This document shows positions 13,385 through 27,992 of a stretch of DNA of 64,000 nt, in pieces. The notes under the pieces were generated by a model. The model saw only the letters and a program-made list of their open reading frames with translations, searched no databases and was not told the origin of the DNA. Both the position numbers and the translations under genes were made by a program. Position 1 is the stretch's first letter; every line of letters starts with the position of its first letter. Source of the DNA: Cyclobacteriaceae bacterium (GTDB lineage: Bacteria; Bacteroidota; Bacteroidia; Cytophagales; Cyclobacteriaceae); the NCBI GenBank assembly GCA_026129485.1, contig JAHCHY010000001.1, forward strand, positions 124,001 through 188,000, written 5' to 3'.

Positions 13385-14959
13385 ATGCGCAATTTGTTTT
13401 TACTCGCATTGCTGTGCACTCTTATCACATCCCGGGCACAGACGCTGAAAGCACCCGAAGTAAAAGAAGGTGACGGCCCCTACCCCCAGCTGATCATAAG
13501 AGGCGTAACGTTAATCAACGGTACCGGTGCACCACCCATCGGCCCGGTTGATATCGTGGTAAAGCAAAACCGTATTATAAACATCGCCACTGTGGGCTAC
13601 CCCGGTGTTCCGGTCAACGAAAGCCGCAGACCCAAGCTGGAAGCAGGCGGCAAGGAGCTGGACTGTACAGGCATGTACCTGATGCCGGGCTTTATTGATA
13701 TGCACGGGCATATTGGCGGCAGCCAGGCTCCCATTGCCGAATATGTTTTCAAATTGTGGATGGCGCACGGCATCACCACCATTCGTGAGCCGTCATCCGG
13801 TAACGGGTTGGACTGGGTGCTGGAACACAAAACCAAAAGCGCACAGAACAAGATCACCGCTCCGCGCATTTTTGCCTACACCGCTTTTGGCATGGGTGCG
13901 AAAGAACCTATTGCCACAGCCGAGCAGGCCCGTGCGTGGGTAATTGAAAACAAAAACAAAGGCGCTGATGGTATAAAATTTTTCGGTGCTTCGCCCGAAG
14001 TAATGGATGCTGCCTTGCGCAAGAATAAGGAGCTGGGCTTACGTTCGGCTACCCATCATGCCCAGATGAGTGTGGCTCAATGGAATGTAGTACAGTCCGC
14101 ACGTGCCGGGCTTACCAGCATGGAACACTGGTACGGTTTGCCGGAAGCATTATTCACCAATCAAACCGTACAAAACTTTTCACTCGATTATAACTACCAA
14201 AATGAAATGCACCGCTTTGGCGATGCCGGCACGTTATGGAAACAGGCTGCCGCTCCTTACTCCGAACACTGGAACAAAGTAATGAACGAATTGCTTGCGC
14301 TTAACTTCACCCTTGACCCTACCTTTAACATTTACGAAGCCAACCGCGATTTGCACCGTGCACGCAGGGCGGAGTGGCATGAAGATTATACGTTGCCAAA
14401 ATTGTGGGCATTCTACCAGCCCAGTAAAATTTCGCACGGCTCATACTGGCATGCGTGGGGCACCGAGCAGGAAATACAATGGAAAGAAAACTACCGGCTG
14501 TGGATGACATTTGTAAATGAATACAAGAACAGGGGCGGTCGTGTAACTACCGGTTCTGACTCCGGCTTCATTTTCCAGCTGTATGGCTTTGCTTACATAC
14601 GCGAGCTGGAGCTGTTACGCGAAGCAGGCTTCCACCCGCTGGAAGTAATTCGTTCCGCAACCTTGTTTGGCGCACAGGCGCTGGGCGCTGATAAAGACCT
14701 GGGCACGGTAGAGATCGGCAAGCTCGCTGACTTTGTAATTGTGGAAGAAAACCCGTTGGCCAACCTGCAAACGCTTTACGGAACCGGTGCGATTAAATTA
14801 ACGGACGACAATAAAGTAGTACGCGCAGGCGGTGTAAAGTACACGGTTAAAGATGGTATTGTGTACGATGCCAAAAAGCTGCTGGCCGATGTGAAGAAGA
14901 TCGTGGACGAAGAGAAAGCCAAAGCGGGGTTTGTACTGAAACAACCCGGTGTTGATTAA
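13385..14959 (+). CDS. Exported amidohydrolase (imidazolonepropionase-like)
   Basis: A 524-aa metal-dependent hydrolase with a signal peptide (MRNLFLLALLCTLITSRAQ). The amidohydrolase superfamily signature is present: a beta-sandwich N-terminus with IIRGVTLINGTG, then GFIDMHGHIGG with the HxH metal ligands near residue 107. Later come ATHHAQMS, SMEHWYGLPE, the TGSDSGF metal/catalytic Asp region, and the C-terminal GTVEIGKLADFVIVEENPL sandwich. The group includes imidazolonepropionases, prolidases and other cyclic-amide hydrolases; substrate cannot be read from sequence. It is probably periplasmic. A palindromic repeat and a TPR lipoprotein gene follow on the same strand. Confidence 0.88.
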   Translation: MRNLFLLALLCTLITSRAQTLKAPEVKEGDGPYPQLIIRGVTLINGTGAPPIGPVDIVVKQNRIINIATVGYPGVPVNESRRPKLEAGGKELDCTGMYLMPGFIDMHGHIGGSQAPIAEYVFKLWMAHGITTIREPSSGNGLDWVLEHKTKSAQNKITAPRIFAYTAFGMGAKEPIATAEQARAWVIENKNKGADGIKFFGASPEVMDAALRKNKELGLRSATHHAQMSVAQWNVVQSARAGLTSMEHWYGLPEALFTNQTVQNFSLDYNYQNEMHRFGDAGTLWKQAAAPYSEHWNKVMNELLALNFTLDPTFNIYEANRDLHRARRAEWHEDYTLPKLWAFYQPSKISHGSYWHAWGTEQEIQWKENYRLWMTFVNEYKNRGGRVTTGSDSGFIFQLYGFAYIRELELLREAGFHPLEVIRSATLFGAQALGADKDLGTVEIGKLADFVIVEENPLANLQTLYGTGAIKLTDDNKVVRAGGVKYTVKDGIVYDAKKLLADVKKIVDEEKAKAGFVLKQPGVD

Positions 14960-14964
14960 CAGAA

Positions 14965-15018
14965 GTTATTCGTTAATGGTTGTTCGTTAATGGTATAGAT
15001 TAACGAACAACTATTAAC
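14965..15018. repeat. Intergenic palindrome made of direct and inverted units (copy b)
   Basis: The unit GTTATTCGTTAATGGT (14965-14980) is repeated as GTTGTTCGTTAATGGT (14979-14994). The core GTTGTTCGTTAAT (14979-14991) is perfectly inverted at 14999-15011 around a 7-base loop. It may act as a terminator or RNA-stabilising hairpin between the amidohydrolase and the TPR lipoprotein. Copy d at 63655 has a closely similar left arm. Confidence 0.65.
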
Positions 15019-15047
15019 TTATCGGAATAATCAAAGAAAAGACAATT

Positions 15048-15980
15048 ATGAAACGCATTTATATACTCCTCATTATTATCATAGCCGCAGTTGCCTGCAA
15101 AGAGAACAACCCCGAACAAGCCGCAGCAGAAGCTGCCGAAGTTTATTCTTTGTTAGGGCTGGAATACTATGCCCCTGCAGAACCCAATCCCAAATTAGAC
15201 AGCAACCTGGCCGTGGCCCAAAAGAATTTTGATGCCGATCCATCGGAAGAAAATTACATTTGGCTGGGTCGCAGGTTAGCCTACCTCACCCGGTACAACC
15301 GGGCCATTGACGTATTTACCGAAGGAATAGAAAAATATCCCGGTTCATATAAGCTCTATCGTCATCGCGGGCACCGCTACATTTCGCAGCGCAAGCTCGA
15401 TGCAGCCATTGCCGATTTTACCAAAGCCGCAGAGCTGATGCCGGCTGCTCCCCCGGAGATTGAGCCCGATGGCGTTCCCAACAAAATCAATAAACCATTA
15501 TCCACCACGCAATTCAATGTATGGTATCACCTGGGGCTGGCGCATTACCTGAAAGGTGAATGGGATAAAGCCGAGCAAGCTTACCTGGAATGCATGGACG
15601 TAAGCGATAATGATGACCTTATTGCAGCCACTGCAGACTGGCTGTATATGACCTATCGCAGGCAAGGCAAAACGGAAGAAGCAAAGTTGGTATTGGAGAA
15701 GATCACACCCGGCATGACCATTGTTGAAAACAATTCCTACTTTAAACGCCTCAACCTGTACAAAGGCAACCTGCCGGTAGATTCCGTACTGAACGTGAGC
15801 AGCGCTGCGGCTGATGCCGACCTCGCCCTTGCCACGCAAGGGTATGGCGTGGGCAACTGGTATTTATATACAGGCGATACGGCACAAGCCATATCGGTTT
15901 TTGAACGGGTAGTACAGGGAAAACACTTTTCGGCATTTGGCTTTATTGCAGCCGAGGCAGACCTGGCCCGGATGAAGTAG
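15048..15980 (+). CDS. TPR-repeat lipoprotein
   Basis: A 310-aa protein with a lipoprotein signal (KRIYILLIIIIAAVAC; lipobox AVAC, Cys near residue 17). Tetratricopeptide helices are visible at about residues 62-130 (NYIWLGRRLAYLTRYNRAIDVF; LYRHRGHRYISQRKLDAAIADF), at 165-195 (WYHLGLAHYLKGEWDKAEQAY) and at 270-310 (WYLYTGDTAQAISVF). TPRs mediate protein contacts; no partner is evident. It is likely at the periplasmic face of a membrane. It may be co-transcribed with the upstream amidohydrolase, as the gap is 88 bases and mostly palindrome. A strong hairpin follows before the convergent TonB receptor. Confidence 0.88.
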   Translation: MKRIYILLIIIIAAVACKENNPEQAAAEAAEVYSLLGLEYYAPAEPNPKLDSNLAVAQKNFDADPSEENYIWLGRRLAYLTRYNRAIDVFTEGIEKYPGSYKLYRHRGHRYISQRKLDAAIADFTKAAELMPAAPPEIEPDGVPNKINKPLSTTQFNVWYHLGLAHYLKGEWDKAEQAYLECMDVSDNDDLIAATADWLYMTYRRQGKTEEAKLVLEKITPGMTIVENNSYFKRLNLYKGNLPVDSVLNVSSAAADADLALATQGYGVGNWYLYTGDTAQAISVFERVVQGKHFSAFGFIAAEADLARMK

Positions 15981-16004
15981 CTTCTCATACACCGGAGTAA
16001 AAAA

Positions 16005-16052
16005 GGGTTGCTCAAAAACCTGCACGGAACAGGTGCAAGGTTTGAGCAACCT
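16005..16052. terminator. Bidirectional terminator between convergent genes
   Basis: GGTTGCTCAAA (16006-16016) pairs with TTTGAGCAACC (16041-16051), and the inner CCTGCAC/GTGCAAGG bases extend the stem. A-rich bases precede the stem and serve as a T-tract for the minus strand. It separates the plus-strand TPR gene from the minus-strand TonB receptor gene. Confidence 0.75.
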
Positions 16053-16069
16053 CCTTTCATCAAAACCGG

Positions 16070-18241
16070 TTACAACGAGATCTTTATCCCGCCATTTATT
16101 ACAAATCCGTCTACCGGTGCATAGATGTCGCGGAAGACCGGGTTGGTAATGGTACCGGTATAAATGCTATCGAACCGCGATTGGCGGGTGTCCATAAAAT
16201 TTTCGAAGTTGATGTACACCGAAAAACCTTCCCATATTTTTTCCGCCATAAACCCACAGATCCAATACGCTTTTCCGGTGGCGCCATCGCTTAGCTTTTG
16301 TGTGCTGAAGTAATACGCTTCCAATCCAATCTTCCAGCTTTCTTCCCGTTCGTACATCAGCACATTATTAAGCCGGTGCTTTGCTGTAAGCGGATTTTGA
16401 AAAGATGTTCCGTTGTGGTGCACCCGGGTATCGGTATAAGTATACCCCACAAAAAGCTTAAAATCGTTATACTCCAGCTTTACATTGGTTTCCGTTCCCT
16501 TACTGTCGGTGTAGCCGGCCAGGTTCACAAACACCTGATCACCGGAAGGTAAGCCTGAAAGCGTAAGCGGATCATTCAAATAGGTATAAAAGAAAAGATG
16601 GTTGATGCTTAAGCCGATGGCATCGCTGGCAACAGCGGTTTTGTAATTAAAATCCCAGTTGGCCCCGTATGAGCGTTCAAGCTTATTAGCCTGGCTGGAA
16701 ACAGGTAATACATTACGGTATTGAATGCGCTCGCTTTCTTCCGTAAAGATCGTGGGCGCTTTATAGCCCAGCCCGCCACCGAGGCGCGAAGAAAAAGCGT
16801 GCGAAGGCTTATACATCAGCGAAGCACGCGGCAGCAATGCAAACCCATAGCCTGTTACATAATCGCCCCGAAGCCCGCTTTCCAATTGAAATTTTTCCGA
16901 CAGCTCCAGGTTGTTCTGCACAAACGCCCCCAGGGTAGCCTGGTCATAATCGCGCAATGGTGTTGCCGTTAATGGTGCTTCGGTAAATTTATCGGTCCAG
17001 AGGTTTATACCTCCTATCCATTCGGCTGTTTCGTTTTGCATGGCCAGGCTCACTTCCGTGAAGGTACCGTGCTGCACACCATCAAACGTGTAGCCCGGTG
17101 TGTTGATGATGCGTCTGAAGCGGTTCACACTGTTTTTAACGGTAAGCCGGGCTGCTTCGCTGAATGAATGCGTATAAGAAAGCTGGGTGGAGAAACGATC
17201 GGTATTGTTTTTTTCAAAGTAGCTATGCATGGCATCGCCCCGCCCGGCTATGTACAGCATATCGCCACCCATGCGGTTTTCCGTTACAAAGCTCAGCCCG
17301 ATATCCAGCTTATCGCGCCCTGTCAGGTCAATAAACAATTTTGGATTTACCGTGTAGCGATCAAACCGGGGAATGGCGGTTAAATCAAGATCGGCCGGAT
17401 CGTACGCTTCGTTGCTGTTCTTAGATAAAAACAAGGTAACGCCCGTCTTCCCGAATTTCTCCCCGTAAAAGCCATTCAGGTCAAGCCCGCGGGCCGAAGT
17501 TCCGTTCAGCCACAACCGCAGCTCGCGTTCTTCGCCCGGGCGCTTGCTCACCAGGTTAACCATACCGGCAATGGCGCCACCGCCATACAAAGTGGAAGAA
17601 GATCCTTTAATAACTTCAACCTGCTTCAAATCTAACGGTGGCGTTTGCAGCAATCCCAATCCACCGGAAAAGCCGGCATACAAAGGAAAGCCGTCTTTCA
17701 GTATTTGTGTGTAGCGCCCGTCCAAGCCCTGTATGCGGATGGAGGCATTGGCAGAAGTAGCCGATGTTTGCTGCGTTTGTATACCCGTGCTTTCATTCAG
17801 CAACATGCGGATATCGCCCGGCTTCATGTTACCTTTCTCTTCCAGCTCTTCACCGGCTATAAGCTCAACCCGTGTGGGAATATCGGCAATCGTGCGACTG
17901 CTTCGGGTTGACATAACGATTAGCTCTTCCAGCTCTTCGCTGTCTTCTTCCAGCCATATTTCGACAGGCGATTCAATGCTTAGCGGGAATCGCAATACCA
18001 AGCTGTGCGTTTTGTAACCGACAAAGCTAATGCGGATGGTTTGCTCACCGTCCGGCACGTTTTCAACCTGTAACAATCCGTTTTCGTTTGCCGTGGCGCC
18101 CAGCGGGGTTCCCTTTATTAACGCGGTTGCGCCCGGCAGGGGCAATAAGCTTTCTTTGTCTTTAACCACTGCACGAAAGGCGCTTTGTGCAAAAGCAAAG
18201 GATGATATAAAAAATGTTATGATGACACATGTAACTCGCAT
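16070..18241 (-). CDS. TonB-dependent outer-membrane receptor
   Basis: A 723-aa protein with a signal peptide (MRVTCVIITFFISSFAFAQ). Residues about 22-100 form a carboxypeptidase-regulatory-like/SusC-type beta-sandwich (FRAVVKDKESLLPLPGATALIKGT). The TonB plug follows at about 120-225 (VELIAGEELEEKGNM, IRIQGLDGRYTQILKDG, VEVIKGSSSTLYGGGAIAG). The remainder is the 22-strand barrel, ending in a terminal strand FVINGGIKISL. The receptor imports a ligand across the outer membrane using TonB energy. A Cys-rich DUF6660 protein is encoded 41 bases upstream in the same direction. That pairing is seen in metal-related loci of Bacteroidota, so a metal or metal-complex ligand is possible (inference). 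No SusD partner is present. Confidence 0.93.
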   Translation of the reverse strand: MRVTCVIITFFISSFAFAQSAFRAVVKDKESLLPLPGATALIKGTPLGATANENGLLQVENVPDGEQTIRISFVGYKTHSLVLRFPLSIESPVEIWLEEDSEELEELIVMSTRSSRTIADIPTRVELIAGEELEEKGNMKPGDIRMLLNESTGIQTQQTSATSANASIRIQGLDGRYTQILKDGFPLYAGFSGGLGLLQTPPLDLKQVEVIKGSSSTLYGGGAIAGMVNLVSKRPGEERELRLWLNGTSARGLDLNGFYGEKFGKTGVTLFLSKNSNEAYDPADLDLTAIPRFDRYTVNPKLFIDLTGRDKLDIGLSFVTENRMGGDMLYIAGRGDAMHSYFEKNNTDRFSTQLSYTHSFSEAARLTVKNSVNRFRRIINTPGYTFDGVQHGTFTEVSLAMQNETAEWIGGINLWTDKFTEAPLTATPLRDYDQATLGAFVQNNLELSEKFQLESGLRGDYVTGYGFALLPRASLMYKPSHAFSSRLGGGLGYKAPTIFTEESERIQYRNVLPVSSQANKLERSYGANWDFNYKTAVASDAIGLSINHLFFYTYLNDPLTLSGLPSGDQVFVNLAGYTDSKGTETNVKLEYNDFKLFVGYTYTDTRVHHNGTSFQNPLTAKHRLNNVLMYEREESWKIGLEAYYFSTQKLSDGATGKAYWICGFMAEKIWEGFSVYINFENFMDTRQSRFDSIYTGTITNPVFRDIYAPVDGFVINGGIKISL

Positions 18242-18282
18242 AGCTGCCAGGTTTTAAGTGATAAAAAAAGAAAAAACAAATT

Positions 18283-18579
18283 TCACTTAACCCAACGGGG
18301 CGGCTGCCAGATAGACTGGATCACGGTTGCAATAAAAGGATCGGTATAAAAACCGGGATTGGCTTCAGCGGGCAACACGAACACCGTTAGTTGCAGCGCT
18401 GCCGGGTAAACCCGCAAGGCACAGCAGGCGCTGGCACAAAACGGGGAGCACGATTCGGGTTCCGGCTCCCCTTCATCATGGGCAACTGTTTCCGTTGCAC
18501 GCTCCCCGGCACAGGTGCCGTCATAGCAGGGATATACCGACAATGCAGCGATGTAAAGCGCGAGTATGAAGTAATACAT
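18283..18579 (-). CDS. Cys-rich DUF6660-like small protein
   Basis: A 98-aa protein. Start at ATG 18579 (MYYFILALYIAALSVYPC) gives a single hydrophobic N-terminal segment; an ATG 12 codons upstream is possible. Cysteines cluster in YPCYDGTC and again in ESCSPFCASACCA near residue 42, separated by an acidic HDEGEPEPE stretch. The end SIWQPPRWVK matches the SIWQPPK tail typical of DUF6660. Function is undescribed. The paired Cys and acidic residues suggest metal binding or disulfides outside the cytoplasm. It lies directly upstream of the TonB receptor and probably forms an operon with it. Confidence 0.75.
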   Translation of the reverse strand: MYYFILALYIAALSVYPCYDGTCAGERATETVAHDEGEPEPESCSPFCASACCALRVYPAALQLTVFVLPAEANPGFYTDPFIATVIQSIWQPPRWVK

Positions 18580-18758
18580 TTTCAAACCGCCCCAAAAATA
18601 CCGAATGTTAAGCATGGTGCGCACGATCACCCGTTTTTTTAAAGTTGGTATTATGCTGGCGCACCTGATTTTTCTATCTTCGCACCGGCTTACCCGTGTT
18701 GCTGCGGGCCGCCTGGCCTGCATCATGTAAGAGGTGCATTTAATTTTAAGAGCAGTAA

Positions 18759-18781
18759 CTTGTTGGCCAGCGACCAACAAG
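18759..18781. other. Hairpin just upstream of tRNA-Arg
   Basis: CTTGTTGG (18759-18766) and CCAACAAG (18774-18781) form a perfect 8-bp stem with a 7-base loop, nine bases before the tRNA. It may be a 5' leader structure affecting processing. A TAACTTG sequence overlapping its left arm is only a weak -7 candidate. Confidence 0.35.
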
Positions 18782-18789
18782 AACAAAAG

Positions 18790-18864
18790 GGTCTCATAGT
18801 TCAACGGATAGAATAGAAGTTTCCTAAACTTTTGATCTGGGTTCGATTCCCGGTGAGACCACCA
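18790..18864 (+). tRNA. tRNA-Arg (anticodon CCT)
   Basis: The acceptor arms GGTCTCA (18790-18796) and TGAGACC (18854-18860) pair perfectly. The D-arm GTTC/GAAT, anticodon stem GAAGT/ACTTT with loop TTCCTAA (anticodon CCT), and T-arm CTGGG-TTCGATT-CCCGG are all present, and the CCA end is encoded (18862-18864). The AT-rich defence island begins just downstream of its 3' end. tRNA 3' ends are common integration sites, but I found no second copy of the 3' end on the far side. Confidence 0.97.
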
Positions 18865-18997: not shown

Positions 18998-19978
18998 TTA
19001 CAAAGAATTAAACAATGATCCGTCAGCCATTAGCTCCATTGGGATTACTGGTTTTAGGCCTGTCAAATCCGATTTAAAACGAACATCAGAAACGAACCTT
19101 GGAATATTTTCAATATCAATTTTTGGAATATCCTCTGTTCTGTAGAACTGCAAAGAATCTTTTGCGTATTCATAATCAAATTTAAGTTTCATGGAATCTC
19201 TAATTGCCTTTCCCAAAGTCAAAGCAATTTGCAATTGAAGCTTTTCTGTTAATTCAGTGTCAGAAAGGCGTTCAGAAATTTCATTTGAAAGTGCCTCAAT
19301 GCTTTTTCCCACGCTTGCTTGCCTTACAAATACAGAAGCAATTAATGTTTGTGTATTTGATGGTGAATTGAGTTGGTCAATTGAGAAGTTGTGAACCCTT
19401 AAGGAGTTTGATGAACTCTTTACCTCAATCCTCTCATCACCATTATTGAAGTCCAATTTTTCTTCCGGTATGCTGTGCCAACACCTGATAAGGTTTGCTG
19501 GCTCTTTGCTTTCAGCAATCAAAAGCAACTCCGCCCAAAGTCCTTGAATGGTTTTTGTCTGAGGCTCTGTTGCTAAACGAAATAACTCAATGAATCTTGT
19601 AATTTCTTTCCTGATTTCATCTTGACTTGGTGAGTTGCCTAAATCTTCTAAAAGTGTTGAGCAAAGTTTGAGAAAATATTTTTTTAAGGAAACATCCTTC
19701 CCGATAAAACAAACCACAGTAAAAGTTTTTTCAAGCAAATTTCCACCTTGGTGAATCTTGCATTTGATGTCAAACAAGACTGAAACATTTTGCAATTTCA
19801 TATTTGCAGCTACGGTTTCTGCTTCTTGACTGGAAGTTGAGAGCAGCAAAGTGGGGTTATTATATTTGTCTTTTGCAATTCTATGGTTGGAATATTCGGG
19901 AATGGGAATAGCAGAGAATTGGAAACTACCATTCTCGCTTGGTTGTTCTATTATATTGAATATTTCAACCAGGTTCAT
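18998..19978 (-). CDS. DUF4420 / PD-(D/E)XK motif protein of the Z1-GHKL defence operon
   Basis: A 326-aa protein, last gene of the five-gene defence operon. Start at ATG 19978 overlaps the Z1 stop as TAATG; a TTG nine bases upstream also exists. A restriction-endonuclease-like core is visible: Glu150 in GLWAELLLI, Asp176 in KLDFNNGDERIEVKSS, then Glu185 and Lys187 of the EVK motif. This agrees with the DUF4420 PD-(D/E)XK family that accompanies Z1 helicases and MutL/MORC-type ATPases. The likely role is DNA cleavage as effector (inference). Codon use is AT-rich relative to flanking core genes. No recognised terminator was seen downstream. Confidence 0.85.
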   Translation of the reverse strand: MNLVEIFNIIEQPSENGSFQFSAIPIPEYSNHRIAKDKYNNPTLLLSTSSQEAETVAANMKLQNVSVLFDIKCKIHQGGNLLEKTFTVVCFIGKDVSLKKYFLKLCSTLLEDLGNSPSQDEIRKEITRFIELFRLATEPQTKTIQGLWAELLLIAESKEPANLIRCWHSIPEEKLDFNNGDERIEVKSSSNSLRVHNFSIDQLNSPSNTQTLIASVFVRQASVGKSIEALSNEISERLSDTELTEKLQLQIALTLGKAIRDSMKLKFDYEYAKDSLQFYRTEDIPKIDIENIPRFVSDVRFKSDLTGLKPVIPMELMADGSLFNSL

Positions 19979-22137
19979 TAAGCCCAACGAATAAATTCTC
20001 TGCCAAGTTCTATAGGGATATGAGTTGCAATAGCAGGGACATTTGAGAATACAATTCTATCTTCTTGAAGCAAGTTTAAAATATGAATTTGAAATGTAAT
20101 CCCATTATCCAATATTGCTCTATCACCTTCATAGTTTGAACTTCTGCCTTGAAAGAGTTGATTGATTTGATTATTCTCTGGATTCAAAGTTCTTTCCCTT
20201 GGGTTTTCAAAGTTACTCATTAAAAACACAGTGCAAGTTTCATCAGGAACTTCTTCTAAATGTCGGCTTAAAGCATAAAGTATAGCTGTATAATCACCAA
20301 CGTCCGCGGGACTTGTGAATCGAAGTAAATTCAACAGTTCATCATAAACAGATGAAAGAGAGGTTCTTAATGTTGGAATTCTACCTGTCCTGTCAAACTG
20401 AGCGTTTGCTATGAAAGTGCTTGCAGCATCCTGATTGCTTGAAACAATTTGCTGTGAGTAATGAGGTATTTTAATCACATTCCATTCGCCACCTGTAATT
20501 GTTCTTTCAAATTCATTTGAGAAAATATTTGTTCTTGCAAGATTTAAGTCGCTTGATAAAAACACTTCACGATACCATTCATTTAAGCTTCTTCCTGATG
20601 CCTCATGCTCTGCCAATCTTCTCCGCATATCTTCTTCATGCTCTACATACTTTATATAAGTATCTCTCGCATCTTGGTCAAGATAAACCCTGCAATAGCC
20701 TAAATAGCTTTGTTTATAACCGAAAAACCTTGCTCGTTGCTGTATCGTGTCCGCATTCCCTACGCCTACGCTTCTTGGCATATATGTAACGGTCAGTCCT
20801 TCAACTGTGAATCCCCTGTCCATTGCTTGTCCACCAATCAAAATAAAAGAATAATTATTTCGCCACTCAACGATTGTTCTATTTCCTCCTCTCGAATTAA
20901 GAGATTGAACAACTGTTGAATTAATTGCATGCCGTAAACGATGTCCTGTAAGTTCTTCAAATTGCGGAATATCAGTAGCTGTTCTTGCTAAATCATTATA
21001 AGCGGCTCTGAATTCGCTAAGCAAATCTTGCTTGTCGGGATTGTCATCTGGTAAGCTAAGAACTTCAACAAAATGGTTTTTAATGTTTGTTACAAATCGG
21101 AAATAGTCTGCATGTGTGTAGGTAAGCTGTGAAGGGTGAATCATCATTGAACGCTTTCTGCCTTCTCTGCTTCTCATTCCCTTAACCACTCCTAAAAAGA
21201 AAACCTGCATCGCAGAAATCAGACTCGCAGGAGGTGAAGCCGGGTCTTCCTCAGGGTCAACGTCAGGGATTACTTCAGTCGACTCAGGTTGTTCTACAAA
21301 GAATTCTCTTCCACCTGTATAAGCAGGCCCTGGGGTAAGCAACTTTATGAAGTTGGGCGAAAGCGAATCCATTAGATCAATGAACAGAGGAGCTTGTGGT
21401 GTTGCTGTGTATTGGATGAATGTATGATGTGGGATTGAGTTTCTCAAATTGATAATTCGATCATTGATAGCGCTTCGTCTGTTGCCTCCTTGTCTTGCAT
21501 TCTGTCTTGCAAAGCGATTCATGCTGTGCTGGTCGCCTTCATCGTCAATTATCAAAGTCGGCACACGTTTTAAATCCAGTGTTTGCAAAAGTTCTTGAAG
21601 GTTCGGCAAATGATTTCTCTGCTTCATTACAGTTATCAAAATTGTTTTCCGTTCTTCTCCTGGAAATGTATCATCTTTGTACTCAGATAAGGCGGTAGCT
21701 ATTTGGTTTCGAGTTGTAATATCATTCAATCTTGGATTTCTGAATGAAAGCCATTGTAAATCTGTTCTGGTGTCAATCCTTAAATCTCTTTCAAGCCGCG
21801 TATATGATTGGGCAACAAGATTTGTAGAAATTCCTGCTATAATGATTACCATTTGATAACTGTTGTCCTTTGCCAAAGCTGTAAGGGTTGTGAATGACAT
21901 TGTCTTTCCGCTTTGAACATAGCCAAAAACTAAACCAATTTCACTATTCGTTTCATTATTTGGATTACCACATTTTGAAAGTATATCAACAGTTTCATCA
22001 ATCAATCTTCCCTCGCTTTCTCTTGGTAGCTGCAAGTGTGCTAAAAGTGATTGGGTTTCAATCCCAACTGACGGCAACCATCGGTTATTGTCTTGTGGTT
22101 CAGCCATTGTAATTTGCTCAGTGTTATCTACTGCCAT
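19978..22137 (-). CDS. Z1 domain-containing superfamily 2-type ATPase/helicase
   Basis: A 719-aa protein. P-loop FGYVQSGKT at residues 71-79, Walker B with IDDEGD at about 197-202, then a YTATPQAP segment resembling helicase motif III. The Z1 domain follows with GGQAMDRGFTVEGLTV and NADTIQQRARFFGY, corresponding to motifs V and VI. Iyer, Abhiman and Aravind described Z1 proteins as helicase-like ATPases found in restriction operons with MutL/MORC-like ATPases, and a Z1 protein is a component of the Mza system. It probably translocates on or remodels DNA. The start overlaps the GHKL gene by 10 bases and the stop overlaps the DUF4420 start by one, which indicates translational coupling. Confidence 0.92.
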   Translation of the reverse strand: MAVDNTEQITMAEPQDNNRWLPSVGIETQSLLAHLQLPRESEGRLIDETVDILSKCGNPNNETNSEIGLVFGYVQSGKTMSFTTLTALAKDNSYQMVIIIAGISTNLVAQSYTRLERDLRIDTRTDLQWLSFRNPRLNDITTRNQIATALSEYKDDTFPGEERKTILITVMKQRNHLPNLQELLQTLDLKRVPTLIIDDEGDQHSMNRFARQNARQGGNRRSAINDRIINLRNSIPHHTFIQYTATPQAPLFIDLMDSLSPNFIKLLTPGPAYTGGREFFVEQPESTEVIPDVDPEEDPASPPASLISAMQVFFLGVVKGMRSREGRKRSMMIHPSQLTYTHADYFRFVTNIKNHFVEVLSLPDDNPDKQDLLSEFRAAYNDLARTATDIPQFEELTGHRLRHAINSTVVQSLNSRGGNRTIVEWRNNYSFILIGGQAMDRGFTVEGLTVTYMPRSVGVGNADTIQQRARFFGYKQSYLGYCRVYLDQDARDTYIKYVEHEEDMRRRLAEHEASGRSLNEWYREVFLSSDLNLARTNIFSNEFERTITGGEWNVIKIPHYSQQIVSSNQDAASTFIANAQFDRTGRIPTLRTSLSSVYDELLNLLRFTSPADVGDYTAILYALSRHLEEVPDETCTVFLMSNFENPRERTLNPENNQINQLFQGRSSNYEGDRAILDNGITFQIHILNLLQEDRIVFSNVPAIATHIPIELGREFIRWA

Positions 22138-23675
22138 AACCTATTTTTTGTGATAGCTGTCAAAAGCTTATTTAAATTCATTCTTACTGTTCCTGCTTGT
22201 TTCACACCCGCTTCTCTTGCTGTTTCTTCTGCAAGCCCGATTGATGCTGCAATTCTTAATATCGGTTCGAGTTTGCTTTTATCTGAACCTGCAAACTGTA
22301 ATACAAACGGATGGTTTAAGCTCATTCTAACTCCAACTTGTCTTAAAGTCTTGTCTGTGCTTTTACTTTTTAAAACATGGCTTCCTATTTCAATCCAATC
22401 GATAATATCATCATCATAAGAAAGCTCAATCGTAACCAGCCATTTTGTATCGTTAAACTCAATTTCAAACTCTCTATTCGCTACTTCATCAGTTTTAGTG
22501 AGTGAAGTTGCTTCGTTTGCTGAAATAGGAGTTGAGCGAATTTCACTTATAGCTGGCTGAACATTGTTTTTGATGTCTTCAACCGTACTTTTTACAACTG
22601 CCTCTGCTGTTTTCTTCAATTCTGCCTTTGGCGGATTCACTCTGTAATCTCTCGCTTGGCGAATAAAGTTTGCAGCAGCCAAATCTTTTTTGAGCAGTTC
22701 CAAAAAAATGTCCATGTTTTCATCCCACTTGATACCTTTCTTAGTGAAGCTAACATTAAAACCTTCTAAATGAAGCTCTCCAAAGATTCTTTTCCATTCA
22801 GGGCTGCCGACTTCTCCCATAATTTCTTTTGGCTTAAACCCTTCATCACAGCTTCCTTCAATTACTCTGCCTCGTCTAAAGAGCGCAAAACCATTTTTCC
22901 CACTTTCCATTGACTCAAGCACTCCTACAAAGCCTTTCACAAACATTTTTCCCTTATCAATATCAAAATCAATTTCTTTCCGCCAATATATCGGAGCTGT
23001 CTTGCTATCGTATGGAAAAGGTGCAGTCAAAATATTTGGGTCTTTGTATTCTAATGGTTCATTGTCAAGGTAAAGCTTTAAGATTCCTTTTCTTGTAAAG
23101 TCGCGGTAAATGCTTGCCAAGTGCTCTTTGATTTTGCCTTTTGTTTTCTTAACAGGCATTTTATTGATGCTGCTTAGCTCAATTACCGTATAATGAGAAT
23201 TTTCGTTTTGCTTCTTAGTTCTTACTTGAAGTTCCTCAATCTTATCATAGAAGATCTTGTTCAGGTCAAATGAAACAGTCTTTTCCACATCTTCGCCAAT
23301 AGCTGTTGTTCTTACACTCCAATAATCGGAAAACCAGCAAGCAGCAGATTTCATTCCCATGCCGAATTCGGAAAGCCCCGAATTGTCAGGCGGAATTTCG
23401 GCAGCCCGAAAAGCTCTTGCATAATCTCGTTGATGTATGCCCGCGGCATTATCACGAATAATAATTTTTTTGTCGGTATCATTAATTTCAATTTTTACCT
23501 CTAACCGAAATCTTTTCCCTTCAATTTCTTTTAGCTGCTTTTCATTTTTCAAATAGCTATCAATTGCATTGTCAACAAATTCAGCTAAAGCGTACCAAGG
23601 GTCATACTGAATGTGCTTGAGCATCGTTAAGATGCTTACACCAGGTCTTATACTAACAGTTTTAGAATGCTTCAT
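22128..23675 (-). CDS. MutL/MORC-like GHKL ATPase of the defence operon
   Basis: A 515-aa protein with a GHKL (gyrase-Hsp90-histidine kinase-MutL) ATP-binding fold. N-box EFVDNAIDSY with Glu32 and Asn36; G1 box DNAAGI (Asp75-Gly79), where Ala-Ala replaces the usual Gly-x of DNGxG; G2 box EFGMGMKSA (Gly105-Lys109). Following residues resemble the S5-like middle domain (VIELSSINKMP). It is not the housekeeping mutL, which lies at 56204-58006. Prokaryotic MORC-like ATPases of this type are known from restriction operons with Z1, methylase and nuclease genes. Likely role: ATP-dependent clamp or DNA-loop sensor (inference). One base separates it from the methyltransferase stop. Confidence 0.9.
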   Translation of the reverse strand: MKHSKTVSIRPGVSILTMLKHIQYDPWYALAEFVDNAIDSYLKNEKQLKEIEGKRFRLEVKIEINDTDKKIIIRDNAAGIHQRDYARAFRAAEIPPDNSGLSEFGMGMKSAACWFSDYWSVRTTAIGEDVEKTVSFDLNKIFYDKIEELQVRTKKQNENSHYTVIELSSINKMPVKKTKGKIKEHLASIYRDFTRKGILKLYLDNEPLEYKDPNILTAPFPYDSKTAPIYWRKEIDFDIDKGKMFVKGFVGVLESMESGKNGFALFRRGRVIEGSCDEGFKPKEIMGEVGSPEWKRIFGELHLEGFNVSFTKKGIKWDENMDIFLELLKKDLAAANFIRQARDYRVNPPKAELKKTAEAVVKSTVEDIKNNVQPAISEIRSTPISANEATSLTKTDEVANREFEIEFNDTKWLVTIELSYDDDIIDWIEIGSHVLKSKSTDKTLRQVGVRMSLNHPFVLQFAGSDKSKLEPILRIAASIGLAEETAREAGVKQAGTVRMNLNKLLTAITKNRLWQ

Positions 23676-23676
23676 A

Positions 23677-25020
23677 TTAGTGCGCTACTAAAGTAGTTTC
23701 TGCTCTTTTTAAGCTGTTTTTTTCTTGTCCATTTTGGTTATGCTTTGGCTGAATATCCAAAAGCCTTTCGGCTATCAGTTTTACAATTTTTGCATTAACC
23801 GCATTGCCTAATGCTCTGAAAGCTGCGTTGTCATTTGCAGGCAACTCTATTCCTTCTAAGGATTGCAACTTTAATCCTTCTTCTCTTGTGATATAGCGGT
23901 TCTGCCAGCCGACAACTGGAATTTGTGTGTTGGTACAGACAAGCGAAGGAAAAAAATCAACGCTTTTTACTCTGATTCCTGATGCTCTGAATTGTATAAT
24001 GTAGTCAGTAATCTTGCGATTACTTTCACCAACGTTCCATTCCAATTTTTGCCAACTTTGAGAGGAGTATTTCGCCATTTCTTTTACGACATCGGCTACA
24101 TACCTTTTATTATCTTGGTAAAATTCTCTGCTTTGCCTTATGTAGCTTCGCTTCCAGTCTGGAAATGTTTTTTCAACTCTTGCATAGCTTGGCAAATTTG
24201 CCCTTTGCTCTTTTTTTATCAATCCTTTCAGGCTACGACCAAAGTTTCCTTTAAACTCCCCCAACTCTTTTGCCGAAAGTTTTAGCGGATAAGATTTCTC
24301 ATAAGGATAAGTTGCTCCAAATTCCATTCCCCAAATAGGAAACCCCGGCAGTTTCGTTTCTTTAGGAATTTGGTCAATGAACCTTTGCCATAACTTTAAG
24401 CACTTTTGGTTTTTTATTGGTAATTCTTTAAACTGGCTCGGATTTTCCTCAATAAATTGATGAATATTTATCAACGATGTTTTTTGCTCATCAATTTCTC
24501 TGAATGAGAAATGTTCAAGTCCTTTCAGCGAACCAATGATAAAAATCCTTTTTCGGTGCTGTGGTATGCCGAAATCCTGTGGTGAATAAACCGCGTGATC
24601 AACATCGTAGCCCAGCTTCGTAAGTTGCTTGTGCATATATTTCCATGTCGCCTCATTGTTGTGCTGACGGATAAAGGGAACATTTTCAAGAATGAAATAC
24701 TTCGGTTTTCTGTATTCAAGTATTTTAACTATTTCACCGAAAAGAGTTCCCCTTTCTTTGTCCTTCCTGCCTTCCTGATTACCCGCCTTCGAAAATGGCT
24801 GACAAGGAAAACCTGCACAAAGAATGTCATGCTTCGGTATGCTATCAATGTCCTTGGCTACAATTTTTCTTATATCACCTTTCGGCTCAATACCCCAATT
24901 AGTTTTATAAACTTCACGTAAAGTTGGGTCAAGCTCGCTCGCGAAAACACAGTCGTGTCCAAGCTCATGTAATGCTTTGTGAAAGCCTCCAAGTCCCGCA
25001 AATAGGTCAATGAATTTCAT
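23677..25020 (-). CDS. DNA (cytosine-5) methyltransferase
   Basis: A 447-aa C5-cytosine methylase that should protect host DNA. Conserved motifs: SAM-binding motif I DLFAGLGGF (5-13), catalytic motif IV GFPCQPFS with Cys73, ENV motif VI (112-114), QHRKRIFIIG motif VIII (154-163), and the motif X-like ALGNAVNAK near the C-terminus. The target-recognition region lies between motif VIII and about residue 350; its recognition sequence cannot be predicted. The start overlaps the Vsr stop as ATGA. It belongs to the Dcm-like group that is commonly paired with Vsr. Confidence 0.95.
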   Translation of the reverse strand: MKFIDLFAGLGGFHKALHELGHDCVFASELDPTLREVYKTNWGIEPKGDIRKIVAKDIDSIPKHDILCAGFPCQPFSKAGNQEGRKDKERGTLFGEIVKILEYRKPKYFILENVPFIRQHNNEATWKYMHKQLTKLGYDVDHAVYSPQDFGIPQHRKRIFIIGSLKGLEHFSFREIDEQKTSLINIHQFIEENPSQFKELPIKNQKCLKLWQRFIDQIPKETKLPGFPIWGMEFGATYPYEKSYPLKLSAKELGEFKGNFGRSLKGLIKKEQRANLPSYARVEKTFPDWKRSYIRQSREFYQDNKRYVADVVKEMAKYSSQSWQKLEWNVGESNRKITDYIIQFRASGIRVKSVDFFPSLVCTNTQIPVVGWQNRYITREEGLKLQSLEGIELPANDNAAFRALGNAVNAKIVKLIAERLLDIQPKHNQNGQEKNSLKRAETTLVAH

Positions 25021-25445
25021 CTAATCTCTGATTCTTTTATTTTTCTGTATAATTTTGTCAATGTCTTTTCTCTTTTCTTACCTCTAAGTTCACATTCCCA
25101 AATTGTGAAAATATTCCAGCCAAGCTTTTTTAGCTCTTTTTTGTTTCTTTTATCTCTTTCAACATTTTTCAAAATTTTCGGTATCCAATAATCGGTATTG
25201 CTTTTAGGCATTCTATTCAGCTTACAGTTCTTATGAGCATGCCAGAAGCAGCCATTTACAAACACTACTGTTTTGTGTTTTGAAAGAACAATATCAGGAT
25301 TCCCGATTAGCTTCTTATTGTATATGCGAAATCTTAGCCCTTTACTAAACAAATATTTGCGAACAAGCAACTCAGGCTTTGTATCTGTCTTCCTGATTTT
25401 ACTCATTATATCGCTTCTTTTCTCTTTTGAGAACTTATCTTTCAT
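25017..25445 (-). CDS. vsr: Very-short-patch-repair (Vsr) family endonuclease
   Basis: A 142-aa protein, first gene of the operon. Its numbering aligns directly with E. coli Vsr: Glu25 (TKPELL), Asp51 (GNPDIVL), Phe67-Trp68-His69 (GCFWH) and WECEL near 115 are kept. Thr63 and His64 of E. coli are Val63 and Asn64 here; such changes occur in other homologues. Classical Vsr nicks at T:G mismatches made by deamination of 5-methylcytosine. In operons with Z1 and MORC-like ATPases it could instead be part of the restriction nuclease. Alternative ATG at residue 14 is less likely because it would remove conserved N-terminal residues. Confidence 0.92.
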   Translation of the reverse strand: MKDKFSKEKRSDIMSKIRKTDTKPELLVRKYLFSKGLRFRIYNKKLIGNPDIVLSKHKTVVFVNGCFWHAHKNCKLNRMPKSNTDYWIPKILKNVERDKRNKKELKKLGWNIFTIWECELRGKKREKTLTKLYRKIKESEIR

Positions 25446-26120
25446 AAACCCTTGCTATGCTCATATCAATTCGATTCTTTAGGTTTCAGGTCGCGTTAGG
25501 GATTGAAACGGAAAGCCCGGCCCCGGTACCACAAAATAAGGAACAAGCGTAGGTCTAAGGACATGCTTATCAATTGGTTAACTGAACATTAATTTCTCAC
25601 AAATTAGCTGATTTTTGGTCAAAATGATAGACCTGCTTGCATGAAATACATTGCTTGTCCCTGTTTTTATGTGCTCTTATAAACCCGCGTACACGCCACG
25701 GGGGTATAAAATTTATGCAACAAGGGGGTGCATAGCGGGTTGTACGGCCATGCTGCTATGCCCCACCGCTACGGGAAACCGCTGAGGAGTTATGAACAAC
25801 GATAAATCACGCCAGCAGAAAGGGAAAAGATTAAGATATTCTTTACAGAGAAAAAAGGAAACCAGTTTTTGCTAAGAAGGTGAGGAAGCAAGAAAAAATC
25901 TCAGGAAGGTTAAGCTGATTTAAGCGATTTTATCAGAAGGCATCTAAGCCTCCGCAACTTAACGAGTTTTCTTCTTTAAAGATTTTCTTAGCTGACCCCT
26001 GTTCTCCGGCTTGTAATCTTTCCGCTCTTCCACCCGTAGGATGGAATGGCATTTACCAATTCCTGCGGTTTTTCAGCTTTCTTTTTTGCTGTCATGCTTG
26101 TTCCTTATCAAAGGATGCGG
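25446..26120. other. Gene-poor decayed segment with hairpin and inverted repeat
   Basis: This 675-bp stretch has no credible intact gene. From left to right: a GCGTTAGGGATTGAAAC motif (25491-25507) followed by a GC-rich run; an inverted pair CAAGCGTAGGTCTA (25544-25557) / TAGACCTGCTTG (25628-25639) with one unpaired base; a hairpin with GCATAG (25730-25735) and CTATGC (25756-25761) arms extended by G/C runs; a 27-codon plus-strand ORF starting ATG 25792, whose RYSLQRKKETSF segment weakly recalls mobilization protein MobC; and a 35-codon minus-strand ORF from 26095 to 25988. Together these suggest remains of a mobile element. Assignment is tentative. Confidence 0.4.
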
Positions 26121-26528
26121 TTAAGGAAAGGGGTTCACAATCTTTAGTTTCTTCTCAATAACCTGACTATTGTTCATATCCTCCGAATATAAAATCACGC
26201 ATTCACATTCCAGGGCAGCCGAGATAATCAGGCTGTCATAAAAGGAAAAACCATAGCGTTCCGCCACTTTACAAGCCTGAACAATCGTGCTTTCTGTGTT
26301 GATATGAAGAATACTATTATCCCTTGACTCATTGATAGCCTTTATCGCGTCAGCAAAGGTAAATTTAAATTTCTTTGTCAGCGTATTGGCAAGCTCCTGC
26401 AATACCTGGGTGCTAATGAATGAAGTATCTCCACTTATAAGTTGCTGCGCAATTCTTTGTTTTTCAGGTTCTGCATAGGAGTAACTGTAAACCAAAAGAT
26501 TGGTGTCAATAAAAACATTACCGTTCAT
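26121..26528 (-). CDS. PIN-domain toxin (VapC-like ribonuclease)
   Basis: A 135-aa PIN domain. The start at ATG 26528 begins MNGNVFIDTNLLVY, the normal PIN N-terminus; upstream in-frame ATGs would overlap the antitoxin further. Acidic active-site residues: Asp8 (FIDTN), Glu45 (LQELAN), Asp98 (FYDSLI) and Asp117 (YSEDM). VapC toxins cleave tRNA or rRNA using Mg2+. The start overlaps the upstream antitoxin-like gene by 11 bases, as usual for toxin-antitoxin pairs. It lies in the accessory segment between the defence operon and the core genes. Confidence 0.88.
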   Translation of the reverse strand: MNGNVFIDTNLLVYSYSYAEPEKQRIAQQLISGDTSFISTQVLQELANTLTKKFKFTFADAIKAINESRDNSILHINTESTIVQACKVAERYGFSFYDSLIISAALECECVILYSEDMNNSQVIEKKLKIVNPFP

Positions 26529-26712
26529 TGGCCTCATCGCGGTTAAACTTATACCCACGGGTATCAATCCTCAAAGCAGTAAAAGAAACTTTCTTTTTGC
26601 CATTGGCCGATCCTTCTTTCTTTTCAGCAATAGAAAAATCGAAATACTTGGCAAGGCTTTTTAAAAGCTCCAGTGTTTTTGAATCCTTGTATTTTATGAT
26701 GGCCTCTTTCAT
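26518..26712 (-). CDS. Putative antitoxin partner of the PIN toxin
   Basis: A 64-aa protein (MKEAIIKYKDSKTLELLKSLAKYFDF...). It is charged, with a predicted strand followed by a helix at residues 1-27 and a Lys-rich middle. The end YKFNRDEANER is typical of the toxin-binding tail of small antitoxins in Bacteroidota. No standard AbrB or RHH signature is certain. Evidence for its role is its size, position directly before the PIN gene and the 11-base overlap. If so, it should bind and block the PIN protein and repress the pair. Confidence 0.7.
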   Translation of the reverse strand: MKEAIIKYKDSKTLELLKSLAKYFDFSIAEKKEGSANGKKKVSFTALRIDTRGYKFNRDEANER

Positions 26713-27807: not shown

Positions 27808-27852
27808 GAAAAGTGCACGAAGCCCGGCAATCGGCTTATCGCGCCAACAATA

Positions 27853-27982
27853 AAAAAAGAGGCTATCTCAAAGTACATCTCACTGTCAGGTTGAGCTTGT
27901 CGAAACCGGTTTTAAGGCTCTAAATAGCCTTCGACAGGCTCAGGCAGACAATGAAGTTAACTTTTGAGATAGCTTCTTTTCC
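27853..27982. repeat. 130-bp nested palindrome between convergent genes
   Basis: Outer arms: AAAAGAGGCTATCTCAAAG (from about 27855) and CTTTTGAGATAGCTTCTTTT (27961-27980) pair with few mismatches. Inner arms: TGTCAGGTTGAGCTTGTCGAA (27884-27904) and TTCGACAGGCTCAGGCAGACA (27930-27950) are a second nested inverted pair. The A-run at the left and T-run at the right would serve as terminators in both directions. The length and two-level structure are also those of a small non-coding mobile (MITE-like) element. Confidence 0.75.
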
Positions 27983-27992
27983 ATTTTAATTC

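Follow-up and report, generated by a model that had tools for sequence, protein, structure and literature searches.

A Dcm-MORC-Z1-DUF4420 operon with an optional Vsr gene in a Cyclobacteriaceae genome: a probable ATP-dependent restriction-modification system

Which kind of system do five closely packed genes of a Cyclobacteriaceae bacterium encode, and how might its parts work together? The genes lie on the minus strand at positions 18998-25445 of a 64,000-nucleotide stretch (the window; positions 124,001 to 188,000 of contig JAHCHY010000001.1, assembly GCA_026129485.1). A preliminary description of this DNA took them for a compact modification-restriction variant, not ordinary Mza, in which two ATPases gate one or two nucleases, and called it the best candidate in the window for an incompletely described system. 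The gene coordinates bear out the five consecutive genes. In order of transcription, these are:

25017..25445, minus strand: Vsr-family mismatch nickase, 142 amino acids (aa); PF03852, TIGR00632
23677..25020, minus strand: 5-methylcytosine (m5C) DNA methylase of the Dcm type, 447 aa; PF00145; PCQ motif at 24799-24807
22128..23675, minus strand: MORC-type GHKL ATPase, 515 aa; PF13589; MORC S5 motif GFALFRRGRVI at 22860-22892
19978..22137, minus strand: Z1-domain ATPase of the superfamily 2 (SF2) type, 719 aa; PF10593; Walker A GYVQSGKT at 21901-21924; Z1 motif DTIQQRARFFG at 20719-20751
18998..19978, minus strand: DUF4420 protein, putative PD-(D/E)XK nuclease, 326 aa from ATG 19978; PF14390

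The four junctions described earlier also hold when read from the bases. The vsr and methylase genes overlap in ATGA, the methylase/GHKL junction is one base, the GHKL and Z1 genes overlap by ten bases, and the Z1 gene passes into the DUF4420 gene through TAATG. Because of this last junction, the DUF4420 gene likely starts at ATG 19978 and not at the listed TTG 19987, which would give 329 aa. The strong matches for GHKL (HATPase_c_3, PF13589, E 6.1e-16), Z1 (PF10593, E 3.8e-37) and DUF4420 (PF14390, E 2.4e-42) confirm the families named before. The methylase matched PF00145 at E 4.6e-67, and Vsr matched PF03852 at E 1.1e-30 and TIGR00632 at 150.2 bits (cut-off 97.85).

This gene set is of a kind that was already predicted, from genomes, in 2008. 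Papers are cited here and below for what their available text states. Iyer, Abhiman and Aravind (2008, PMC2292703) proposed bacterial MORCs as relatives of the animal and plant chromatin MORC ATPases, placed them in restriction operons, and gave the S5 motif GhXhhpXXRhl as separating MORC from paraMORC. Their third operon type contains a MORC GHKL protein, a superfamily II helicase with a C-terminal DThhQXuRhFG domain and an E-D-ExK protein of the restriction endonuclease (RE) fold, and its neighborhoods often include cytosine methylases and Vsr. The preliminary description had rightly credited these authors with restriction operons of MORC, Z1, methylase and nuclease-fold genes. The window operon has the S5 motif, the helicase, the E-D-ExK residues, and both methylase and Vsr, so that nothing essential differs from the type as given in that text. 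It does differ by one residue of the Z1 motif, where Q stands in place of the second hydrophobic residue of the published pattern, and the putative RE fold of its DUF4420 protein is without a match in the PDB.

To place the operon among its relatives, a five-sequence GHKL alignment was scanned against a genome collection of 84,980 species. This gave 279 relatives, the best 80 of which were kept. A scan of viral contigs added 9 loci, for 89 in all, 87 of them with a GHKL open reading frame (ORF). Some loci are near-duplicates, so the counts are of loci and not of independent events. The methylase gene immediately precedes GHKL in 82 of 86 testable loci, Z1 immediately follows GHKL in 83 of 86, and the gene after Z1 is DUF4420 in 72 of 78 testable loci, with DUF4420 absent from the other 6. 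The order in the window thus recurs, and because this adjacency is found again among 87 related loci, the arrangement is not due to chance. The stable unit is Dcm-MORC-Z1-DUF4420. Vsr, present in 13 of the 87 loci, is an optional component. The 80 genome loci are spread over 17 named phyla (39 are in Bacteroidota and two have no phylum), and this spread, together with the compact copy in the window, makes the 2008 prediction for bacterial MORCs directly testable. As a discovery the operon is ordinary; as a target for the first experiments on a bacterial MORC it is useful.

The GHKL, Z1 and DUF4420 proteins of the window are distant relatives of MzaB, MzaC and MzaD. The NCBIfam models each matched the right protein, with scores of 18.7 bits against a cut-off of 850 for MzaB (E 4.5e-4), 111.4 against 1500 for MzaC (E 3.3e-32) and 22.5 against 420 for MzaD (E 5.6e-5). 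The window differs from Mza by its methylase and Vsr and by the absence of AIPR, the linked gene MzaE of Mza. PF10592 (AIPR) had no match in the 97.96% complete genome that the window comes from, in a search whose control was positive in 1 of 14 named genomes. Since the points given in 2008 are present, the Mza models fall far below their cut-offs and AIPR was not found, the operon is a MORC-Z1 restriction operon and not Mza, as had been proposed. AIPR was also searched in 49 cassette-bearing genomes, some of them incomplete assemblies, which hold 50 of the 80 genome loci; 44 had no match. The other 5 had 7 matches, and none was seen beside a cassette: in L022, L064, L066 and L088 the place where the match would fall in the locus holds no ORF of suitable length and strand, and the match of L077 lies about 2.5 Mb from the cassette, assuming that C1 is its chromosome. 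The picture of an operon with two ATPases and a putative nuclease therefore stands, and its status as a new variant does not, since the set was published in 2008 and AIPR-negative genomes are the majority.

Alignments of the window methylase, GHKL, Z1 and DUF4420 proteins with 31 or 32 relatives each were used to examine the active sites. In the methylase, whose solved relatives include M.HhaI and M.HaeIII, P72, C73, Q74, E112, N113, V114, Q154, R156 and R158 are invariant in 32 of 32 rows. GHKL residues E32, D35, N36, D75, G79, G105 and K109 are invariant in 33 of 33, and the S5 motif is found in 86 of 87 GHKL ORFs of at least 300 aa. The sole miss is a split ORF, and one shorter fragment fell outside the tested set. 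The AlphaFold (AF2) model of GHKL (mean confidence score, pLDDT, 84.4) is closest to Hsp90/TRAP1 structures in Foldseek, with MORC2 (9cdj) and MORC3 (5ix2) among the best 50, a result that does not by itself separate MORC from Hsp90. Against PDB sequences, GHKL gave only marginal MutL and Hsp90-type relatives, and it had no match among 50,697 phage records. Z1 is invariant in 33 of 33 rows at G72, Q75-T79 (Walker A), D198-E200 and T244-Q248. The DUF4420 residues, numbered from TTG 19987, are E153 (19529-19531), D179 (19451-19453) and ExK (19418-19426); E153, D179 and K190 are kept in 33 of 33 rows, and position 188 is E in 27 and D in 6. The AF2 model of this putative PD-(D/E)XK nuclease (pLDDT 90.3) has the E-D-ExK residues on a helix and at two strands. 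Among PDB sequences, neither Z1 nor DUF4420 had a meaningful relative. PADLOC 2.0 had no match for the window MORC or DUF4420 protein, which marks an annotation gap.

Other systems share parts of this set. In E. coli, the Dcm-Vsr pair consists of an m5C methylase and a Vsr-type enzyme. Caulobacter ScmA-VsrA (PMC12907096) has the same two kinds of enzyme, as does the window. Both pairs have solitary methylases with no restriction core, whereas the window has a core. CglI and NgoAVII resemble the window in having a methylase and a Z1-domain ATPase (PMC4267653), but they have three genes, no MORC or Vsr, and an R-protein with PLD and B3 domains instead of DUF4420; neither domain was matched by Pfam in any of the five window proteins at E <= 1. 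The HEF_HK/Response_reg_2 pairs of a 2021 study (PMC8011034) have a paraMORC-like kinase (HEF_HK) and place HATPase_c_3 proteins beside C5 methylases and Vsr, as in the window. PF10593 and PF14390 are absent from the text on these pairs. At E <= 1, Pfam gave no HEF_HK match in the window GHKL and no response-regulator family in the five proteins. An island of C. diphtheriae BH8 (PMC5379612) brings together a Z1 helicase, a Dcm-like methylase and DUF4420, as the window does, but has an EcoRII-like nuclease, and its available text names no GHKL or Vsr. Among the listed literature matches for "DUF4420" or "Z1 domain", this is the only paper that names DUF4420.

We favor, at a probability of about 70%, an ATP-dependent restriction-modification system of the MORC/Z1 type, in which the two ATPases, MORC and Z1, would govern DUF4420 cleavage and Vsr would repair m5C that has been deaminated. 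The methylase would put m5C on a fixed sequence of the host as a guard, and a restriction complex of MORC, Z1 and DUF4420 would engage DNA without this mark. Within the complex, DUF4420 would do the cutting, Z1 may be a DNA-stimulated motor that translocates, and MORC a dimeric clamp, driven by ATP, that entraps DNA or loops it. Vsr would nick T:G mismatches that arise by m5C deamination at the methylated site, so that the host is not mutated, and would not act as an effector; such a repair role is stated in PMC8011034. The methylase adjoins the MORC-Z1 pair in 82 of 86 loci, as expected if modification is obligatory. Precedent supports the mechanism in two cases. The CglI N-protein is a DEAD-Z1 ATPase that is active on DNA with unmethylated sites, works with a nuclease and is thought to dimerise via Z1 (PMC4267653), and VcSduA, a GHKL-Shedu fusion, loses its anti-phage activity in both ATPase and nuclease mutants (PMC12137116).

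The presumed target region of the methylase (residues 206-335, as delimited in this analysis) averages 51% identity across 32 aligned members, L028, L043 and L079 being left out, whereas the two catalytic parts average 61 and 63%. For solved methylases such as HhaI and HaeIII, the best-matching stretch stops at query residues 164-218. Conservation of this region across phyla suggests that the relatives' methylases share a recognition sequence. The region may not be private to the family, because the Druantia DruM model (PDLC00034) matches almost the whole window methylase, this part included (residues 2-414, E 6e-69).

Methylase and core do not always share a history. The window and its nearest relative, L012 (Chitinophagaceae UBA4857), are 90% identical in GHKL, 86% in Z1 and 74% in DUF4420. 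Their methylases are 70% identical, and the window methylase is 81-83% identical to those of L015 and L059. The GHKL tree joins the window and L012 as sisters with support of 100. This grouping is rejected for the methylase (approximately unbiased (AU) test, p 3.5e-7), and the GHKL data reject joining the window to L015 and L059 (p 2.3e-7). All comparisons used 35 rows; these are quick trees with long branches, and the groups were picked after the identities were known. The core of L028 is 92, 89 and 83% identical to that of L017, which has a family methylase. No close family methylase exists in the L028 genome (best 35%, over residues 1-184). After the core, its locus (14293-18528) carries a pair of unrelated m5C methylases together with NsnA, a protein with MTaX1, Mrr_N and GmrSD_N domains. 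L043 (13977-19389) has this methylase pair as well (73 and 68% identical to L028's), with NsnA, NsnB and a more distant core, and L079 has a different methylase of 655 aa on the opposite strand. A window core with a methylase of another lineage and three cores beside unrelated methylases imply that the modification and restriction halves can be exchanged. These natural exchanges are a ready system for asking which part reads the target. They would also fit a core that is a portable restriction engine with no fixed target reader and takes its specificity from the paired methylase, as L028 against L017, L043 and the window core with its other-lineage methylase illustrate, although we doubt that this is the case.

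Several results weigh against the restriction-modification reading. Our search of the literature, mostly open texts, gave no experimental study of a MORC-Z1-DUF4420-Dcm operon; "incompletely described" was thus half right, as the set had been predicted and the literature searched holds no experimental test. The DUF4420 model matched no solved PDB fold or nuclease at E <= 0.001, so the basis for calling it a nuclease is its Pfam description together with the E-D-ExK residues. No DUF4420 match was found anywhere in the genomes of L010, L054, L057, L076, L081, L082 and L083. The first search of these had no control match; the rerun gave a control match in 5 of 6 genomes, and the one without belongs to the seven. 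Dcm-MORC-Z1 may work without DUF4420, these loci may have decayed, or a divergent nuclease may have been missed. The Z1 protein of L076 is short (323 aa), and the downstream genes tested in L054, L057 and L076 belong to no convincing family. L028, L043 and L079 have the core but lack a close family methylase (identities of 35, 32 and 33% at best), and a fourth genome, that of L074, has no family methylase match at all. The three cores either use another modification or have lost their own and merely adjoin another system. In addition, co-variation revealed no recognition subunit. In this test, pairwise identities of core segments were compared with those of methylase residues 206-335 over 1953 pairs from 63 rows, namely the window and 62 loci, with core divergence regressed out. 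Loci without all four genes at sufficient length were excluded, as were split, truncated or methylase-swapped loci (L016, L028, L043, L044, L070, L078, L079, L089 and L092). The top core values were 0.35 and 0.33, compared to 0.36 and 0.38 for the catalytic part of the methylase. The Z1 C-terminus had been suspected as the target reader because it is the most divergent part between the window and L012 and between L028 and its relatives, but it is unsupported: segments 521-719 gave values of -0.13 to 0.16.

Cores without a close family methylase could also mean that MORC-Z1-DUF4420 is Mza-like and senses phage DNA or a structure independently of methylation, with the methylase as an anti-suicide or regulatory add-on. 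The weak matches to MzaB, MzaC and MzaD in the right proteins point the same way, and Mza reportedly defends without a methylase. We hold this explanation to be unlikely, given the methylase that adjoins the core in 82 of 86 testable loci and the conservation of its presumed target region. Far less probable still is a modification-dependent system resembling type IV, in which the core would attack DNA with foreign m5C patterns, since a resident m5C methylase beside such a core would tend to expose the host itself to attack.

The role of Vsr was weighed separately. The window Vsr profile matches the solved Vsr 1cw0 (E 1.8e-40). Its catalytic E25, D51 (25293-25295) and H69 (25239-25241) are intact and are kept in 14 of 14 aligned rows, which are the window and 13 relatives' genes with one short fragment omitted. 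It also has Cys66, His71 and Cys74, presumably part of a metal site; position 66 is Cys in 9 of the 14 rows, the window included, and Asp in 5. In 11 of the 13 loci with Vsr, the gene shares the strand of the cassette and lies about 320 bases or less from one of its genes, either ahead of the methylase or past the final gene. Another possible explanation is that Vsr is a second restriction nuclease, whose ATPase-directed nicks in one strand and DUF4420's cuts in the other would give double-strand breaks in unmethylated DNA. The overlap of vsr with the methylase gene could be read this way, as could L054 and L082, which carry Vsr without DUF4420; in L082, Vsr overlaps the end of Z1. In Caulobacter, loss of the m5C methylase causes an SOS response that requires VsrA, a DUF559-type relative (PMC12907096), an observation that we count for the repair reading as well. 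Against a second nuclease, none of the 39 Bacteroidota loci was found to have Vsr, though 8 or more of them end 600 bases or less upstream of the methylase, and in L012 a Septu PtuA-PtuB pair stands upstream of the methylase, at the place that Vsr has in the window. The window Vsr also keeps the residues of repair Vsr enzymes. We consider a second nuclease improbable and prefer repair. Of the one or two gated nucleases first proposed, DUF4420 (72 of 78 loci) is thus the stronger candidate and Vsr (13 of 87) the weaker.

The operon has a GC content of 37.7%, compared to 46.3% for the window, and this is the lowest of any window stretch of equal length in 500-base steps. It looks like an acquired block. 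One further feature lies beside it:

18790-18864: tRNA-Arg(CCT), its end 133 bases past the 3' end of the operon

The 3' end of this tRNA has no second copy in the window, allowing up to 3 mismatches, and no convincing flanking (att) repeats were seen at the operon ends. No empty site was found: the right flank is present in relatives and never adjoins the left flank. No TAnnTTTG site was found on the minus strand of 25446-25700. The spread among related genomes is patchy, with a close GHKL match in 4 and a weak one in 1 of 95 (own genome excluded).

In genomes G009, G013 and G023, this tRNA lies within about 210 bases after the homologue of window 15048-15980, so 16070-18804 was either inserted in the window or lost in these three. 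A CRISPR-repeat-like string (GCGTTAGGGATTGAAACGG...) stands at 25493-25523, with one copy in the window; its 26-base core has one copy in the genome, so there is no CRISPR array here. A PIN-domain protein, perhaps a toxin, is encoded at 26121-26567 (PF01850, E 5.1e-9). An intergenic element of about 130 bases at 27852-27984 recurs at four other places in the own genome and is repeated in genomes of the same genus.

A two-gene block was seen in varying places, either inside the MORC cassette or no more than 5 kb from it, its genes occurring in 15 and 14 of the 87 loci (L031:5669-7684, L032:10549-12539 and L046:10540-12554 are examples) and twice standing between MORC and Z1. Neither gene was seen beside the window operon. 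The first is similar to PADLOC PD-Lambda-5_A (E 9.3e-17) and is ParB-like by inspection, with no Pfam call; the second encodes 263-332 aa and had no Pfam match in the two members tested. The cassette also occurs in viral-collection contigs L093-L098, and in L093 and L095-L098 an upstream gene was read, by inspection, as a serine recombinase.

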